The translations under genes were made by a program, and so were the position numbers. From a virus: DNA of 43,582 nt. The number at the start of each line of letters is the position of its first letter. Positions within the stretch are counted from its first letter, which is position 1. The stretch lies in IMG/VR virus record IMGVR_UViG_3300032053_000157, positions 1 through 43,582 of that record. One strand, given 5' to 3'. Of this stretch, positions 30,553 through 38,192 are shown piece by piece. The notes under the pieces were generated by a model, which made no database searches, had not been told where the DNA came from, and was given only the letters and a program-made list of their open reading frames with translations.

Positions 30553-31695
30553 ATGAAAATATGTTGGTTCGGATTTTTATCATTAAATCACAGTTGGAGC
30601 TTGGTTGGACAAAATATTTGTCGTGAATTTATCCAAAAAGGTCATCAGGTGGATATGTTTTCCACCAATGGCACTAAACTCTTTCCAGATGACCTTAAAC
30701 CCTATTTAAAAGGTTCTTTCGAGCAGGGGCAGCAAGTAACCGCCCAAGACTTCGCTAACGTCACCAATGCGGTCCTAGAACCCAAATACGATATGCAACT
30801 CAGTTATACTGCATTTCGTAATTTTAAAGATTATTTTAGTAAGGGTAATTCAAATAGATTCGGAATCTGGAACTATGAAACAACTATTCTTCCACAATCA
30901 TTTGCTAAAGCTTTTGTTCATGTAGATAAAATCCTTCCTTCTTCTAATTTTTCTAAAAAAATATTTGTTGACAATGGAATTCCTGAAGAAAAACAAGTAG
31001 TTATACCACATGGCATTCATTTAGACAGGTTTGATTCTATAGAGCCATATCAATTAAAAACAAAAAAGAAATATAAAATACTAGCGAATATTGCGCAGCC
31101 ACATCTTAGAAAGAACATTCCTGGTTTATTGGCATCTTTTGGGAAAGCATTTACAAATAAAGATGATGTATGTCTTGTGCTAAAAATATCTAAAAAAAGT
31201 CCCCAACCAGTATTTGATGTAAATTTTGCAGAAATATATAAAGATTTTTGCCATAAATATAAAAATCATGCTGAAATAGAAATAATTGATACATTTATAA
31301 TTGATATTGAAAGCATTTATAAATCTGTAGATATTGTATTTACAATGACACATGCAGAATGTTTTTGGATGCCTGGACTTGAGGGGTTTGCTGCCAATAA
31401 GATTGTAATATCTCCAAATTATGGTGGACAATTAGATTTCATGAATAAAGATAATTCATTTTTAATTGAAGGTAAAGAAATGAGAGCGCCTAATAGTATG
31501 CAGTACTGGGAACCATCACCATATGCTAAAGTATTTAATCCTAATATAGATCATGCAGCAGAAGTATTAAGAGAAGCAGTTAATAAATACGATTATTATC
31601 ATTCTAAATTTTCGCCTTTAATGAAAGAGACTGTTGGAAATTATACTTGGAGTAAAGTTGTAGATAAAATTGTGAATCTTTGTGAAAATAAATGA
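30553..31695 (+). CDS. GT4-type glycosyltransferase (GT-B fold, 380 aa)
   Basis: This looks like a retaining GT-B enzyme that transfers a sugar from a nucleotide sugar. The N-terminal Rossmann part starts MKICWFGFLSLNHSWSLVGQ and includes EFIQKGHQVDMFS. The linker VVIPHGIHLDRFDSI is typical of GT4. In the C-terminal domain, ANIAQPHLRKNIPGLLASF contains the phosphate-contacting Arg-Lys, and AECFWMPGLEGFA provides the E-x7-E motif (Glu269 and Glu277). The length is normal for the family. A stretch near 30,661-30,800 is much richer in G+C than its surroundings. The donor and acceptor cannot be read from the sequence. The two GT2 genes and the RmlB-like gene downstream suggest a shared glycan product. 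The stop overlaps the next small gene as ATGA. Confidence 0.85.
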   Translation: MKICWFGFLSLNHSWSLVGQNICREFIQKGHQVDMFSTNGTKLFPDDLKPYLKGSFEQGQQVTAQDFANVTNAVLEPKYDMQLSYTAFRNFKDYFSKGNSNRFGIWNYETTILPQSFAKAFVHVDKILPSSNFSKKIFVDNGIPEEKQVVIPHGIHLDRFDSIEPYQLKTKKKYKILANIAQPHLRKNIPGLLASFGKAFTNKDDVCLVLKISKKSPQPVFDVNFAEIYKDFCHKYKNHAEIEIIDTFIIDIESIYKSVDIVFTMTHAECFWMPGLEGFAANKIVISPNYGGQLDFMNKDNSFLIEGKEMRAPNSMQYWEPSPYAKVFNPNIDHAAEVLREAVNKYDYYHSKFSPLMKETVGNYTWSKVVDKIVNLCENK

Positions 31696-31865
31696 AATTT
31701 CCAATCAGACAAGACATAGAGATTTTATCAGCCGATGATGTAAAACAACTTAAGTTAGGCTGGACTGTTAAAGAAGTAATTGGCATGGCAGTAATTAATA
31801 CTAGAGGTTTACATAAACCAAATACCATTTTCTCAAATGGTAGAGATATAATAATTGTATGTTAA
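31692..31865 (+). CDS. Microprotein A of the seven-gene tandem (57 aa)
   Basis: Begins inside the glycosyltransferase stop as ATGA and ends seven bases into the next start. Not recognised. The first part contains LSADDVKQLKLGWTVKEVIG, a helix-like piece. The end, NTIFSNGRDIIIV, shows the hydrophobic, Ser-Asn-turn, hydrophobic pattern also found in its neighbours. There is no signal peptide or membrane segment. Tight overlaps on both sides and normal codon use support translation. Confidence is limited because the frame is short. Confidence 0.5.
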   Translation: MKFPIRQDIEILSADDVKQLKLGWTVKEVIGMAVINTRGLHKPNTIFSNGRDIIIVC

Positions 31866-32044
31866 AAACATTAAATAATATATTTTACAAAGAGTATAAA
31901 GAATGTCCAATTGTTATTACTAATGATAATTATATAATGGATTGGCATTCTGCAATATTACATGGATGGAGCACTTCTAAAACAGTTAGAGCCCACGCTT
32001 GCGGTATACAATTTAAATTACAATCGCTTGGTAAAAATGAATGA
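31859..32044 (+). CDS. Microprotein B of the seven-gene tandem (61 aa)
   Basis: Starts seven bases before the end of microprotein A. It contains ECPIVITNDNYIMDWHSA, in which hydrophobic-T-N-D-N-hydrophobic resembles the hairpin of its neighbours, then a Trp/His-containing middle and one cysteine in AHACGIQFK. The last residues, GKNE, resemble the end of microprotein C (KNE), and the DNA at the two stops is identical over 15 bases. Function unknown. Confidence 0.5.
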   Translation: MLKTLNNIFYKEYKECPIVITNDNYIMDWHSAILHGWSTSKTVRAHACGIQFKLQSLGKNE

Positions 32045-32240
32045 TAAATTTTTATTTATAAATGATTGTAATGAAATCATTACGACCGCTTATTCTCAAA
32101 ATTATTTGCTATATAATTTAAGAAAAATAAACCATGTTCCAGCATACTCAAAATTAAGTAATAAAATTAAACTTATGGATAGTCATTCTGCAAGAAGAGC
32201 GGTAATAAATTTTACTATGAAACTATTAAAAAATGAATGA
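32037..32240 (+). CDS. Microprotein C of the seven-gene tandem (67 aa)
   Basis: The frame is open back to ATG 31962, but I choose ATG 32037. It overlaps the stop of B by eight bases in the form ATGAATGA, exactly as microprotein D overlaps C, and its first residues (MNDKFLFINDCNEIITTAYS) then align with the start of D. The C-terminal half is basic and Ser-rich (SHSARRAVINF). It is soluble, with one cysteine. Function unknown. Confidence 0.5.
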   Translation: MNDKFLFINDCNEIITTAYSQNYLLYNLRKINHVPAYSKLSNKIKLMDSHSARRAVINFTMKLLKNE

Positions 32241-32409
32241 TAATTATATTATAATTAGTAATAATATGATTTTCTACATTGCTATTGATAGTAGAAGTTA
32301 TCTGGAATATTTGCTCATGGAAATAAAATATAATATGGATAATAAACAGCCGGATCAATCTATAGTACCCTGTACAGAAGCTTCAATATGCCATCAGATA
32401 ATTTTATAA
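32233..32409 (+). CDS. Microprotein D of the seven-gene tandem (58 aa)
   Basis: Starts with MNDNYIIISNNMIFYIAI, the clearest example of the shared hairpin motif, after the same ATGAATGA overlap seen at the start of C. The middle contains SYLEYLLMEIKYNMDNK, probably helical, and the end has two cysteines (PCTEASICHQ). It overlaps microprotein E by 22 bases in another frame. Function unknown. Confidence 0.45.
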   Translation: MNDNYIIISNNMIFYIAIDSRSYLEYLLMEIKYNMDNKQPDQSIVPCTEASICHQIIL

Positions 32410-32531
32410 TTATACGATCTAATAATAACATTATTTGTTTTAAACTAGTATTAAAAAAACTAATGGAATTAGAAGGGTTCTCAAAAATTTTAGAAAATGC
32501 ACAAACAAAAATCAAAACAATTATTAGATAA
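32388..32531 (+). CDS. Microprotein E of the seven-gene tandem (47 aa)
   Basis: The first 18 residues (MPSDNFIIIRSNNNIICF) repeat the S-D-N-aromatic-hydrophobic-S-N-N pattern of D. The remainder is a basic amphipathic helix (KLVLKKLMELEGFSKILEN). It overlaps D by 22 bases and F by 35 bases, large for phage genes, so either the overlaps are real compact coding or one frame is decaying. Function unknown. Confidence 0.42.
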   Translation: MPSDNFIIIRSNNNIICFKLVLKKLMELEGFSKILENAQTKIKTIIR

Positions 32532-32667
32532 TGATGATTTTGTATATATTTATAGCGATAACAAAATTCATGCAGTTATATTTGTATTTAAACCTGATCT
32601 TAAAAAGGTTATGAATTATGCTTATCAAAAAGAATTAACAAAAACAATTTGTAAATTAAAATTATGA
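32497..32667 (+). CDS. Microprotein F of the seven-gene tandem (56 aa)
   Basis: A basic leader of about 10 residues is followed by NDDFVYIYSDNKIHAVIFVF, the shared hairpin in an inner position, then a Lys/Tyr-rich helix. The later Met at residue 39 is less likely as a start because it would remove the motif. The stop overlaps microprotein G as ATGA. Function unknown. Confidence 0.45.
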   Translation: MHKQKSKQLLDNDDFVYIYSDNKIHAVIFVFKPDLKKVMNYAYQKELTKTICKLKL

Positions 32668-32819
32668 ATACTATAATTATATTATCAAATAATAAAATTA
32701 TTTTATATCCATTAGGCATGAAAACATTTAATTTTGATAAAGCCATACACAATTTGCACAATGAATTTCGATGTAAAATACATAAATCATTTAATGATTT
32801 AAATAATATTAAAGGGTAA
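32664..32819 (+). CDS. Microprotein G of the seven-gene tandem (51 aa)
   Basis: Starts MNTIIILSNNKIILYPLGMK, close to the start of D in pattern (hydrophobic strand, S-N-N turn, hydrophobic strand). The rest contains a helix-like FDKAIHNLHNEF and a short basic tail with one cysteine. It overlaps F by four bases and ends two bases before the GT2 relic. Function unknown. Confidence 0.45.
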   Translation: MNTIIILSNNKIILYPLGMKTFNFDKAIHNLHNEFRCKIHKSFNDLNNIKG

Positions 32820-32821
32820 AT

Positions 32822-32908
32822 ATGAATAAGGTATTAAGTATTGTAATTCCAGTATATAATAGAAAAACTATCAATATTATGTGGAAGAAAAAGAAAGAAG
32901 AAAGATGA
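32822..32908 (+). pseudogene. Relic of a GT2 glycosyltransferase N-terminus (28 codons)
   Basis: The frame reads MNKVLSIVIPVYNRKTI and then a lysine-rich end. S-I-V-I-P-V-Y-N is the classical first beta strand of GT2 enzymes. The next gene starts MNKVLSICIPIFNN, so the two are copies of one N-terminus. The relic stops before the nucleotide-binding Asp, so it cannot be an active enzyme. It overlaps the intact GT2 start as ATGA and has AAGGG about six bases upstream. It may be debris of a partial duplication or deletion, or a translated leader peptide. Confidence 0.6.
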
Positions 32909-33624
32909 ATAAAGTATTATCTATATGTATACCTATTTTTAATAATTGGAATTTTACTAAATCATGTCTTGATGATTTGTCTAAATTACCAAATGATCAT
33001 GAAATTATTATTGTAGATAATGCTAGCATTGATGATACCGAAAATCAATTAAAAGATTCTAAAGAAATAATATATATTAGAAATAATGAAAATAAAGGTT
33101 TTGGATTTGCTTCTAATCAAGGATTTAATTCATCAGCAGGAAACAATGTTTTATTTTTAAATAATGATATTAGAGTAAAATCTAATCATAATAATTGGAC
33201 ATCTGAATTACTTAAATGGTGTGATAAAGGTTTAGTTGGACCTACTATGGGACAATTAGATAAGGATTTAAATTTTGTACAAGAATCAAATAGATTACTT
33301 ACTGGAAATTCATATATGTCTGGCTGGTGCCTTGCCTCATCCAAAAACAATTGGAATAAATTAGAAATTGTAAGACCGCCGCCATTTCTTTCCACAGTAA
33401 CATATGATGATCAAAAAGAAATATTTAATGAAGACTTTTTTTGTTATTTTGAAGATACAGATCTTTCATTTAGGGCGAAGCAATTAAAAATGGATATGAT
33501 TGTTGTTGACATTCCTGTTGTTCATTTTGGCAAGGTTAGTAGTAAACAATTAAATACACATCAATTATATTCAAATGCAAGAAAAATATTTGTAAATAAA
33601 TGGGGCAAGAATATAAACAAATAA
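32905..33624 (+). CDS. GT2 family glycosyltransferase, rhamnosyltransferase-like (239 aa)
   Basis: I place the start at ATG 32905 because it begins the conserved first strand (MNKVLSICIPIFNN) and overlaps the relic stop as ATGA. A GTG at 32881 in the same frame would add only eight charged residues. Visible GT-A features are IIIVDNASIDDTENQL (nucleotide-binding Asp), GFGFASNQGFNSS, FLNNDIRV in place of the D-x-D metal motif, and CYFEDTDLSFRAKQ near residue 180, the acidic region of rhamnosyltransferase-like members. The length suits a minimal single-domain enzyme with no membrane segment. It probably adds one sugar in a cytosolic glycan pathway with the other transferases here. The donor is not readable. 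Confidence 0.82.
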   Translation: MNKVLSICIPIFNNWNFTKSCLDDLSKLPNDHEIIIVDNASIDDTENQLKDSKEIIYIRNNENKGFGFASNQGFNSSAGNNVLFLNNDIRVKSNHNNWTSELLKWCDKGLVGPTMGQLDKDLNFVQESNRLLTGNSYMSGWCLASSKNNWNKLEIVRPPPFLSTVTYDDQKEIFNEDFFCYFEDTDLSFRAKQLKMDMIVVDIPVVHFGKVSSKQLNTHQLYSNARKIFVNKWGKNINK

Positions 33625-33680: not shown

Positions 33681-34691
33681 ATGTCTCCACTTAATAAAAT
33701 TTTAATATCTTTATCTGTAATTTTTGCTCTTTCTCTTGGCGGATTTATAATCTATAAAGAAATGCAAGCATCTAAAAGACAAGATGCGATAGAGCAAAGT
33801 ATTATTAAACAAAAAGAATTGGCTGATAATATTACGCGTTCAATGGCGGAATTTGCAACACGTAAAGATATGGAAGATTTTGCAAAACAATCTGGCGTTA
33901 ATTTAGATGTAATTAAAAATGATCTTGGTAAGTTGCATGCAGAAGTAGTTGCTATTAATAAGGTTGATGTTGTTAGTACTGGATTTACAGGAAACAATAT
34001 TGTAAGCACAACAACTACGCCAAATACTTCTACTCCAGATCCTACACCAACTGTTATGTGTGATGGTAAAGCAATCAGTTGTCCAAATGAAGACCCTAAT
34101 GGTTATATGAAAAATAGACAAGTTTTATCTTTAGAAGAAAGATTTGGTCCCAATAAAGTTCCATTTGGATCTGTAGGATTTTCTGCTTGGCAAAAAGCCC
34201 CTTGGGACCTAACAATCTCTCCAAGAGATTATAAAGTAGTTACAGTGCTTGGTCAAGATGAAAATCGAAGACATTATGCATACAATAAGGTTAGCATTAA
34301 AGTTGATGGACAAGAACATGAATTAAAAATTACTACTGCCGAAATGAAAGAAGAATATCCAACATCAAGAATGTATTGGTTCAATCCTAGACTTATAGGA
34401 GGAATCGACCTCGGCGTGGACGTTACAAAACTTGGAGGCGAAGTTACTCCTAATATTGGATTAGCAATTTCTTCTTATGGAAAATTTAAGGCGCAGCCTG
34501 ATATTTCTATATTAGAAGTTGGCGTTGGTTATGGTATGGTTAGAAAAATTCCAGAGGTTGTGGTTACACCTGTTGCTTTTAATTTAAGAAACTTAATTCC
34601 ATTAACAGAAAATACATATTTAGGACCATCGCTCCATGTTGGAACTGATGGGCATGTTATAGTAATGGCGGGACTAAGAATTGGATTTTAA
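33681..34691 (+). CDS. Membrane-anchored protein with coiled coil and beta-rich C-terminus (336 aa)
   Basis: Residues 6-25 (KILISLSVIFALSLGGFIIY) form one membrane segment after a short basic N-terminus, a signal anchor or uncleaved signal. There is no lipobox. Residues 28-95 are helical with coiled-coil character and end near a Thr/Pro-rich linker (residues 112-125). A CDGKAISCP pair may form a disulfide, which fits a periplasmic location. The C-terminal 200 residues alternate strands and turns and end VIVMAGLRIGF, with a terminal Phe as in outer-membrane barrels. A spanin-like or envelope-remodelling role is conceivable but unproven. It lies between two GT2 genes, so involvement in surface glycan change is another option. 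The next gene overlaps its stop by one base. Confidence 0.65.
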   Translation: MSPLNKILISLSVIFALSLGGFIIYKEMQASKRQDAIEQSIIKQKELADNITRSMAEFATRKDMEDFAKQSGVNLDVIKNDLGKLHAEVVAINKVDVVSTGFTGNNIVSTTTTPNTSTPDPTPTVMCDGKAISCPNEDPNGYMKNRQVLSLEERFGPNKVPFGSVGFSAWQKAPWDLTISPRDYKVVTVLGQDENRRHYAYNKVSIKVDGQEHELKITTAEMKEEYPTSRMYWFNPRLIGGIDLGVDVTKLGGEVTPNIGLAISSYGKFKAQPDISILEVGVGYGMVRKIPEVVVTPVAFNLRNLIPLTENTYLGPSLHVGTDGHVIVMAGLRIGF

Positions 34692-36803: not shown

Positions 36804-38192
36804 ATGACGTCCAAATCTGTTACAGAAGAAGTGCTTTTAGAAGTAATTGCAGATGATGTATCAAATGCAGAAATAAAAACAATAGTAGAGTCACAGCCTC
36901 AACAAAATGCAGATGTTGATTTAAGCAAGCTAGCCGCATTAAAAGCTAAAAATCAAGCAAAACAATCTCAGGAGCAACCTATGTCAGCAAAAATTGTAGC
37001 AAAAAAAGAAAGAAGTTTAGTTTTAGGTATCATCGGTTCAGGGCAAGCTGGATCTAGACTAGCAGAGTCCTTCTATAACCTTGGCTATGACGCTATAGCC
37101 ATCAATACAGCCTTACAAGACCTTAAGCACATCAATATGCCAGATTCTTCTAAATTGCTTCTAGAAGGCGGATTAGGTGGTGCAGCAAAGACTTTATCAA
37201 TTGGTCATGATGCCGCCGAAAATCATAGAGGAGAAATCTTACAATTAGTCAATGATAAATTAAGCCAAACACAAGTTCATGTTTTATGCACAAGCCTTGG
37301 TGGTGGATCTGGAGCCGGCTCAGCTGAAGTATTAGTTGATCTATTATCTGCTTTAGAAAAACCATTAGTTGTTATAGCCGCCCTCCCAATGGAAAATGAA
37401 GACGCCCAAACTAAATCAAATGCCTTGGAAACATTAGCTAAATTAAGCAGATTAACTCAAAGCAAAAAAGTTCATAATTTAATCGTAGTAGATAATGCTA
37501 AGATTGAGGCTATTTATAGTAATGTAAATCAATTAGATTTCTTTAATGTTGCCAATAAAGCGATTGTAGAGCCTCTTGATGTATTCAATACATTATCTGC
37601 CGCGCCATCTCCAGTTAAACCACTAGATAGCGCAGAATTTGCTAAACTATTAATTGATGGTGAAGGTTTAACTATTTATGGCAGCGTTAGCGTCCCAAAT
37701 TTTATGGAAGACACCGCAATTGCAGAAGCTATCATTAATAATTTGGATGGTAATTTGCTTGCAAATGGATTTGATTTAAAACAATGTCGTTATGTTGGAG
37801 TAATGGTTGTAGCTAATAAAGATACTTGGGCAAAAATTCCAAGTTCATCTGTTAACTATGGTATGGAAATGATTCAAGATAGATGTGGTCAACCTCGTGG
37901 TATATTCAAAGGAATATATTCTGTTGACTCTGAACCAAATGACTCATTAAAAGTTTATACAATGATGAGTGGGTTAGGATTACCACAATCAAGAGTTGCA
38001 GAGTTAAAAAAATCTGCTCAAGAATTGATGAGTAATGTTAAAGCTAAAGATGATGGAAGAAACTTAACATTAACATTAGATGTAGGAACTACTGATACAG
38101 TCTCTGCCACTCAAAAGATTAAAGATAAAATTTCTGGTAAGTCTTCAGCATTTGGAAAATTAATGACACCAGTTGTTGATAGAAGAAAATAA
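36804..38192 (+). CDS. FtsZ/tubulin-like GTPase with N-terminal extension (462 aa)
   Basis: This is a filament-forming GTPase of the tubulin/FtsZ superfamily. After a polar tail of about 68 residues come the loops in order: T1 GIIGSGQAGSRLAESF, the base/sugar-contact strand AIAINTALQDL, T3 LGGAAKTLSIGHDAAENHRG, the signature T4 loop SLGGGSGAGSAE, LIVVDNAKI (T6), and a T7 loop PLDSAEFAKLL with two acids spaced as in FtsZ (D-x-x-D/E). These acids complete the GTPase site of the next subunit, so activity is likely kept. The C-terminal domain continues to about residue 400, then a basic tail. The pattern is nearer FtsZ than the PhuZ or TubZ groups, as far as reading shows. Phage tubulins move or centre DNA or capsids; the use here is unknown. 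AGGAAAG precedes ATG 36804. Confidence 0.85.
   Translation: MTSKSVTEEVLLEVIADDVSNAEIKTIVESQPQQNADVDLSKLAALKAKNQAKQSQEQPMSAKIVAKKERSLVLGIIGSGQAGSRLAESFYNLGYDAIAINTALQDLKHINMPDSSKLLLEGGLGGAAKTLSIGHDAAENHRGEILQLVNDKLSQTQVHVLCTSLGGGSGAGSAEVLVDLLSALEKPLVVIAALPMENEDAQTKSNALETLAKLSRLTQSKKVHNLIVVDNAKIEAIYSNVNQLDFFNVANKAIVEPLDVFNTLSAAPSPVKPLDSAEFAKLLIDGEGLTIYGSVSVPNFMEDTAIAEAIINNLDGNLLANGFDLKQCRYVGVMVVANKDTWAKIPSSSVNYGMEMIQDRCGQPRGIFKGIYSVDSEPNDSLKVYTMMSGLGLPQSRVAELKKSAQELMSNVKAKDDGRNLTLTLDVGTTDTVSATQKIKDKISGKSSAFGKLMTPVVDRRK
36971..36983 (+). promoter_or_regulatory. Internal ribosome-binding site and in-frame ATG in the FtsZ-like gene
   Basis: GGAG (36971-36974), six bases and ATG (36981) form a near-ideal start at codon 60, just before the conserved GTPase core. 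It could yield a 403-residue form without the tail. Confidence 0.5.

Follow-up and report, generated by a model that had tools for sequence, protein, structure and literature searches.

Tandem phage microproteins probably built on a recurrent β-hairpin module, often joined to fragments of head proteins

The window, a virus record of 43.6 kb (43 582 nucleotides), carries a baseplate protein, glycosyltransferases, a nucleotide-sugar epimerase and helicases among its genes. A weak match to PhuZ tubulin (phrog_4733, E 6e-6) was also seen at 36804-38192. Seven short open reading frames, designated A to G and all on the + strand, occupy the slot between a GT4-type glycosyltransferase gene (30553..31695, +; assigned from phrog_2170, E 6e-22, and from the loci of relatives) and a GT2-type glycosyltransferase gene (32905..33624, +, start codon at 32905; phrog_841, E 2e-6). 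The tandem order, the lengths of 47-67 codons and the overlaps of 4-35 nt given for these frames in the original prediction were all found to be correct, the overlaps between successive frames being 7, 8, 8, 22, 35 and 4 nt. Just 5' of the GT2 gene, a 28-codon frame (32822..32908, +) that begins MNKVLSIVIPVYNRK resembles a truncated second GT2 start, and is a probable recombination scar at the 3' edge of the slot. A Pfam search with A to G returned no significant match, and B to G had no confident PHROG, in agreement with the view that they belong to no described family. A search with the protein encoded at 33681-34688 gave no match, and no Rfam family reached the gathering score in the window.

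Microprotein A (57 aa; 31692..31865, +) matches the C-terminus of the major head protein (MCP) family phrog_2522 in PHROGs (E 4e-7), and by tblastn has 46% identity with the C-terminal end of gp27 of Bacillus phage G. Against the MCPs of relatives, which served for all comparisons as the MCP of the window phage itself lies outside the record, identity was 67% over 37 residues (E 2e-13), and the profile score against the MCP was 49.9, compared with a maximum of 11.7 among 840 shuffled controls. The MCPs of related jumbo phages have C-terminal ends like GVMPIRQDIEVLPADEPKQLKLGWVVSEIIGIAIVNPRGVAAGRKSVVIGA. Judged by this homology, residues 3-41 of A (31698-31814; PIRQDIEVLPADEPKQLKLGWVVSEIIGIAIVNPRGV) are a copy of the MCP C-terminus of phage-G-like jumbo phages. 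The copy spans only residues 289-327 of the 337 of the MCP, and lacks a complete N-arm, E-loop, P domain and A domain. Between A and the MCP, dN was 0.25-0.29 and dS, where computable, 1.2-3.2, giving a dN/dS of ~0.08-0.23; the fragment is therefore under purifying selection. A direct search of IMG/VR with A, seeded by exact short patterns only, found no match. The C-terminal stretch FSNGRDIII (31830-31856) had been taken as the first of seven copies of a shared hairpin, a claim borne out for B to G as a group; A reached p 0.09 with a motif model built from relatives. The main content of A is a capsid-protein tail rather than a hairpin, an origin that the original prediction had missed.

The remaining six frames share a short segment. 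Hairpins were placed by block alignment in microprotein B (61 aa; 31859..32044, +; PIVITNDNYIM, 31907-31939), C (67 aa; 32037..32240, +; FLFINDCNEII, 32049-32081), D (58 aa; 32233..32409, +; NYIIISNNMIF, 32242-32274), E (47 aa; 32388..32531, +; FIIIRSNNNII, 32403-32435), F (56 aa; 32497..32667, +; FVYIYSDNKIH, 32539-32571) and G (51 aa; 32664..32819, +; TIIILSNNKII, 32670-32702). An ungapped block search for 11 residues over B to G picked exactly the segments that had been named by eye, with a score of 259 against a mean of 125, a standard deviation of 18 and a maximum of 199 in 60 composition-preserving shuffles (z 7.4). When a motif model was built from relatives only and compared with AT-rich shuffles, G (p 0.0017) and F (p 0.007) stood out singly, but B to E were individually non-significant, so that the expected excess over shuffled peptides was confirmed for only two of the six as single proteins. 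At a threshold of at least 10 bits, the motif gave 24 matches in a first set of proteins against one in reversed and none in shuffled sequences; the contrast was weaker in a larger set, at 30 matches against five reversed.

Duplication left traces in the DNA. Direct repeats in phase were found between E and G (58 nt, 72%), the starts of C and D (34 nt, 74%) and B and C (35 nt, 74%), and their offsets of 267, 196 and 238 keep the reading frames in register. The E/G repeat, with a score of 22, exceeded all 60 Markov simulations (maximum 17). Because the in-phase repeats keep register and the E/G repeat surpasses every simulation, the array has grown by internal duplication. Microprotein C holds a second hairpin-like stretch (32159-32193) that is the repeat of B, as well as a junction, AAAAATGAATGATAA, common to the C/D junction, and E has a helix-like stretch after its hairpin when inspected by eye. 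B to G are shown by these data to be duplicates of one hairpin module whose bodies have diverged past assignment, and the block score and the repeats together bear out the earlier idea of a tiny-protein family expanding around a single β-hairpin. Codon usage, expressed as log-odds per codon, was 0.21 for A, 0.06 for B, 0.01 for F, -0.09 for C, -0.14 for G, -0.16 for E and -0.22 for D, where known genes have a mean of 0.34 and a 5th percentile of 0.06 and wrong frames a 95th percentile of -0.18. A and B thus look like genes, C, E, F and G are moderate, and D is doubtful.

Related loci were collected from IMG/VR by searching with the GT4 protein, which gave 26 and then 56 loci in partly overlapping lists, on contigs of up to 480 kb. 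The GT4 and GT2 genes are directly adjacent in most relatives, absence being weak evidence since IMG/VR records are fragments. In some relatives the slot is filled by a methyltransferase gene or by one resembling zinc-ribbon endonucleases. About a dozen distinct lineages have one to four microproteins there, and the prediction of conserved counterparts at the same locus in related phages was thus upheld. Nearly all of these combine a hairpin, of consensus HDPIIIDSNGKIRKKK, with a body that varies. An MCP-tail core is present in one member of almost every array, and in these A-type members the hairpin is placed in a loop between C-terminal segments. Empty slots and lineage-specific arrays are typical of accessory genes. 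Two further features of this region were recorded, namely a GT2 N-terminal extension resembling the MCP tail in L007/L008 and L016, and three tandem proteins with WYLNGKLHRTDGPAIE-type repeats in the slot 3' of GT4 in L229. An AlphaFold2 model of the L238 microprotein, built from 14 sequences, placed strands at residues 27-31 and 37-41 on either side of FSNGK, with a pLDDT of 60-77 in the block, although the model was weak overall (mean pLDDT 62, pTM 0.22). The S/D-N-G-K turn is like that of well-known designed hairpins. The model of L067, an MCP N-terminal shard, was too uncertain for use. The MCP E-loop was considered as a source of the hairpin. In seven of nine MCPs no other part of the protein fitted the motif better, but the E-loop scored no better than shuffles, and it is only a possible source.

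The bodies of the microproteins were compared by a profile scan of 42 microproteins against 161 conserved protein families of these phages, with 840 shuffled controls. Eighteen of the 42 beat all shuffles (scores of at least 12.5, the highest shuffle being 11.7), and these matched only head families: the MCP in 15 cases, and TerL, portal and an ORF adjoining the MCP in one each. About seven of the MCP matches had been found beforehand through MCP similarity and are non-independent, and about 11 of the 18 microproteins, which had been chosen by slot position only, count as independent evidence. Many of the matches are only 20-40 residues long, and those to TerL (the Walker A region, in L003d), portal (L204a) and the neighbouring ORF (L011b) each come from a single microprotein and cover 20-35 residues. 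The parent families were checked with PHROGs (portal, phrog_16240, E 7e-53; TerL, phrog_675, E 1e-57; MCP, phrog_2522, E 1e-77). In pairwise comparisons, 13 of 35 microproteins had a match at E <1e-3, and none did in five shuffled sets. The bodies of B to G and about half of the slot microproteins had no parent match among the 161 families; the impression by eye that D, E and F are like the N-terminal helix of the MCP gained no support from the profile test. A-type cores differ at 0.39, 0.30 and 0.63 of first, second and third codon positions, and their median dN/dS is 0.30, calculated from the 42 of 66 pairs that gave a finite dS. Purifying selection thus acts on the A-type core. The L202 shard and the MCP encoded in the same genome have a DNA identity of 65%, so the shards are old. 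Many counterparts are a hairpin plus a head-protein fragment, which the original prediction had not seen. Taken together, the slot very probably holds coding microproteins of a recurrent β-hairpin module, often joined to a fragment of a head protein (MCP, portal, TerL or the MCP-adjacent ORF), B to G being duplicates of the hairpin module.

Similar pieces are found elsewhere in the genomes of relatives. G003 and G010 (~412-416 kb) have MCP N-terminal fragments with hairpins at the N-terminus and at the E-loop position, adjoined by further hairpin peptides, and hairpin-bearing and MCP-derived shards also lie hundreds of kb from the GT4-GT2 slot. Short tandem ORFs in G021 (L113:5684-6329:-) and G030 (L255:1297-1626:-) correspond to successive parts of the MCP and each end in -CA; this ending overlaps the next start codon, and may therefore be a junction sequence rather than a peptide tag. 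Phage G has a single MCP locus, in which genome no shards were found, and a match in LR745208 was rejected as an ordinary full MCP.

Other short recurrent endings were seen on small proteins of these phages. In G003, G010, G011 and G012, small proteins with nothing else in common share the exact ending ...LKAFW (for example L060:14685-15104:-, L073:2111-2557:+ and L079:11543-11824:-), with 17 distinct ORFs of at least 60 aa ending in KAFW against 0.016 expected; since the codons vary, this tag is one of the peptide level. Several of the tagged bodies weakly resemble the MCP middle domain. In G021 (L106-L125), a lineage-specific C-terminal tag, [DN]II[EQ] and mostly KDIIE, ends ~70 proteins in 39 clusters (53 KDIIE ends against 0.001 expected), and a 622-aa protein (L117:1669-3537:-) has two stretches reminiscent of the middle domain of the MCP or of the L060 shard. 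L153 (G005) holds a tandem array of which the 13 listed proteins all end in [LVT]FS, many with an N-terminal CxxC zinc-ribbon look. Head genes are themselves interrupted in some relatives. The MCP gene of G006 (L042, L045, L098-L099) is split after ~94 codons by an insert of ~1 kb with a 276-aa ORF that looks by eye like a LAGLIDADG endonuclease, and an Rfam search of the split gene found no intron at gathering score. Large in-frame inserts occur in the TerL genes of G012 (L131:3903-6836:-), G006 and G022, and that of G012 is probably an intein because LAGLIDADG domains lie in it.

The parents of the shards suggest one possible role. The portal is a trigger of immune sensors, as in the pairing of SpbK with YonE. 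CapRel is activated directly by the MCP and Lit by the Gol peptide of the T4 MCP, and the terminase is given among the triggers of antiviral STAND proteins (PMC9712102); capsids are sensed by another defence system (PMC11312562). The MCP, portal and TerL shards resemble these known trigger proteins, whereas B to G have no such resemblance. The anti-defence option of the original prediction gains in appeal, the parent proteins being known triggers of immunity, and we give a probability of roughly one in three to the reading that the microproteins are baits, which would engage the bacterial sensors of head proteins but not set them off. During infection, they would present the surfaces by which immune sensors recognise newly made head proteins, and a sensor bound by a microprotein that lacks the activating contact would be kept off. 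The hairpin would fold by itself and hold or multimerise the shard, and arrays would grow by tandem duplication and become diverse owing to the differences in sensors from host to host. A dispensable slot with separate shards that bear hairpins and differ by lineage is in keeping with sensor baits. Against this, poisoning of assembly or docking to virions would suit the shards equally well, a sensor may be activated rather than blocked by a shard, and the conserved shard residues are structural and would be kept under any model. As a tentative generalisation, large phages may maintain modular sets of bait genes that expand in tandem and in which pieces of their own head proteins are combined with a common hairpin, or with another short peptide tag elsewhere, to neutralise sensors.

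The shards might instead be dominant-negative peptides of the MCP, portal and TerL, directed against head assembly of co-infecting phages or of capsid-hijacking satellites, the phage's own proteins having diverged away. The parents are exactly head-assembly proteins, and the shards have diverged from the family MCP, as seen in the 67% identity of A and the 65% DNA identity of the L202 shard. The MCP C-terminal core nevertheless stays close enough to the family MCP to carry a risk of self-inhibition, and the entry of a strand pair of 35 residues into the lattice is hypothetical; we consider this explanation unlikely. We also regard as improbable that the array is debris, head-gene pieces having been copied into hot spots by recombination and homing endonucleases and then left to decay, with the hairpins as by-products. 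The methyltransferase and zinc-ribbon endonuclease-like genes that also enter the slot, the LAGLIDADG-like insert in one MCP (by eye), the LAGLIDADG insert in one TerL and the truncated GT2 start at 32822 would all agree with such a process, but not the purifying selection on A-type cores, nor the same hairpin consensus in many lineages with residues and codons varied. A third possibility is that a shard uses its native interface to dock on a head under assembly, with the hairpin displayed there or taken along, either as a minor component of the head or as cargo for injection. This would account for the two fragments of the MCP N-terminus in which the hairpin lies precisely where the E-loop would be, for its place in the loop of A-type members and for the other short recurrent peptide tags. 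We think it quite improbable, as most relatives have an empty slot and can thus dispense with these parts, and the TerL Walker A piece is no obvious docking element. That the microproteins act on the adjacent glycosyltransferases as adaptors, inhibitors or modifiers, one option of the original prediction, is highly improbable, since despite their constant place between GT4 and GT2, and the MCP-tail-like GT2 N-termini of L007/L008 and L016, most GT4-GT2 pairs have no microprotein and further hairpin and MCP shards lie far from these genes. Capsid glycosylation as a reason for the neighbourhood was dropped because the slot is mostly empty.

The bait reading can be set beside known systems. The HK97-fold MCP of Bacillus phage G (gp27; PDB 6wkk; phrog_2522) is homologous to A and the A-type microproteins in its C-terminal 40-50 residues, and further shards correspond to its N-terminus and its middle; the microproteins, unlike this MCP, are fragments of 20-130 residues with an added hairpin, and are unable to form the complete fold. 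In the Gol peptide and the CapRel-MCP pair (PMC9712102), a short head-protein segment or the whole MCP is likewise recognised by defence proteins, but Gol is part of a working MCP, whereas the pieces described here are separate, hairpin-joined genes in tandem. In DSAD1-type sensor inhibitors (PMC11087589) and other anti-defence microproteins, a small phage protein counters a defence that senses a virion protein, an activity that is putative here; that source does not present DSAD1 as a piece of its trigger. The internal head proteins of T4 with their capsid targeting sequence are alike in having a short shared peptide tag on otherwise unrelated small proteins, but the hairpin of the microproteins is internal or N-terminal, and a link to the prohead would be hypothetical.

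If the anatomy holds, pieces of essential head genes have been turned into separate, selected, hairpin-bearing microproteins, and within a narrow literature search we know of no described gene family or system of this kind. If the bait reading is true, the shards would name the surfaces of the MCP, TerL and portal that are read by bacterial immunity, and would offer a genome-based route to counter-defence genes and to unknown sensors; bait arrays would then be a previously undescribed kind of phage counter-defence. Even if the microproteins are assembly inhibitors or virion adaptors, they would represent a new use of capsid-protein fragments.
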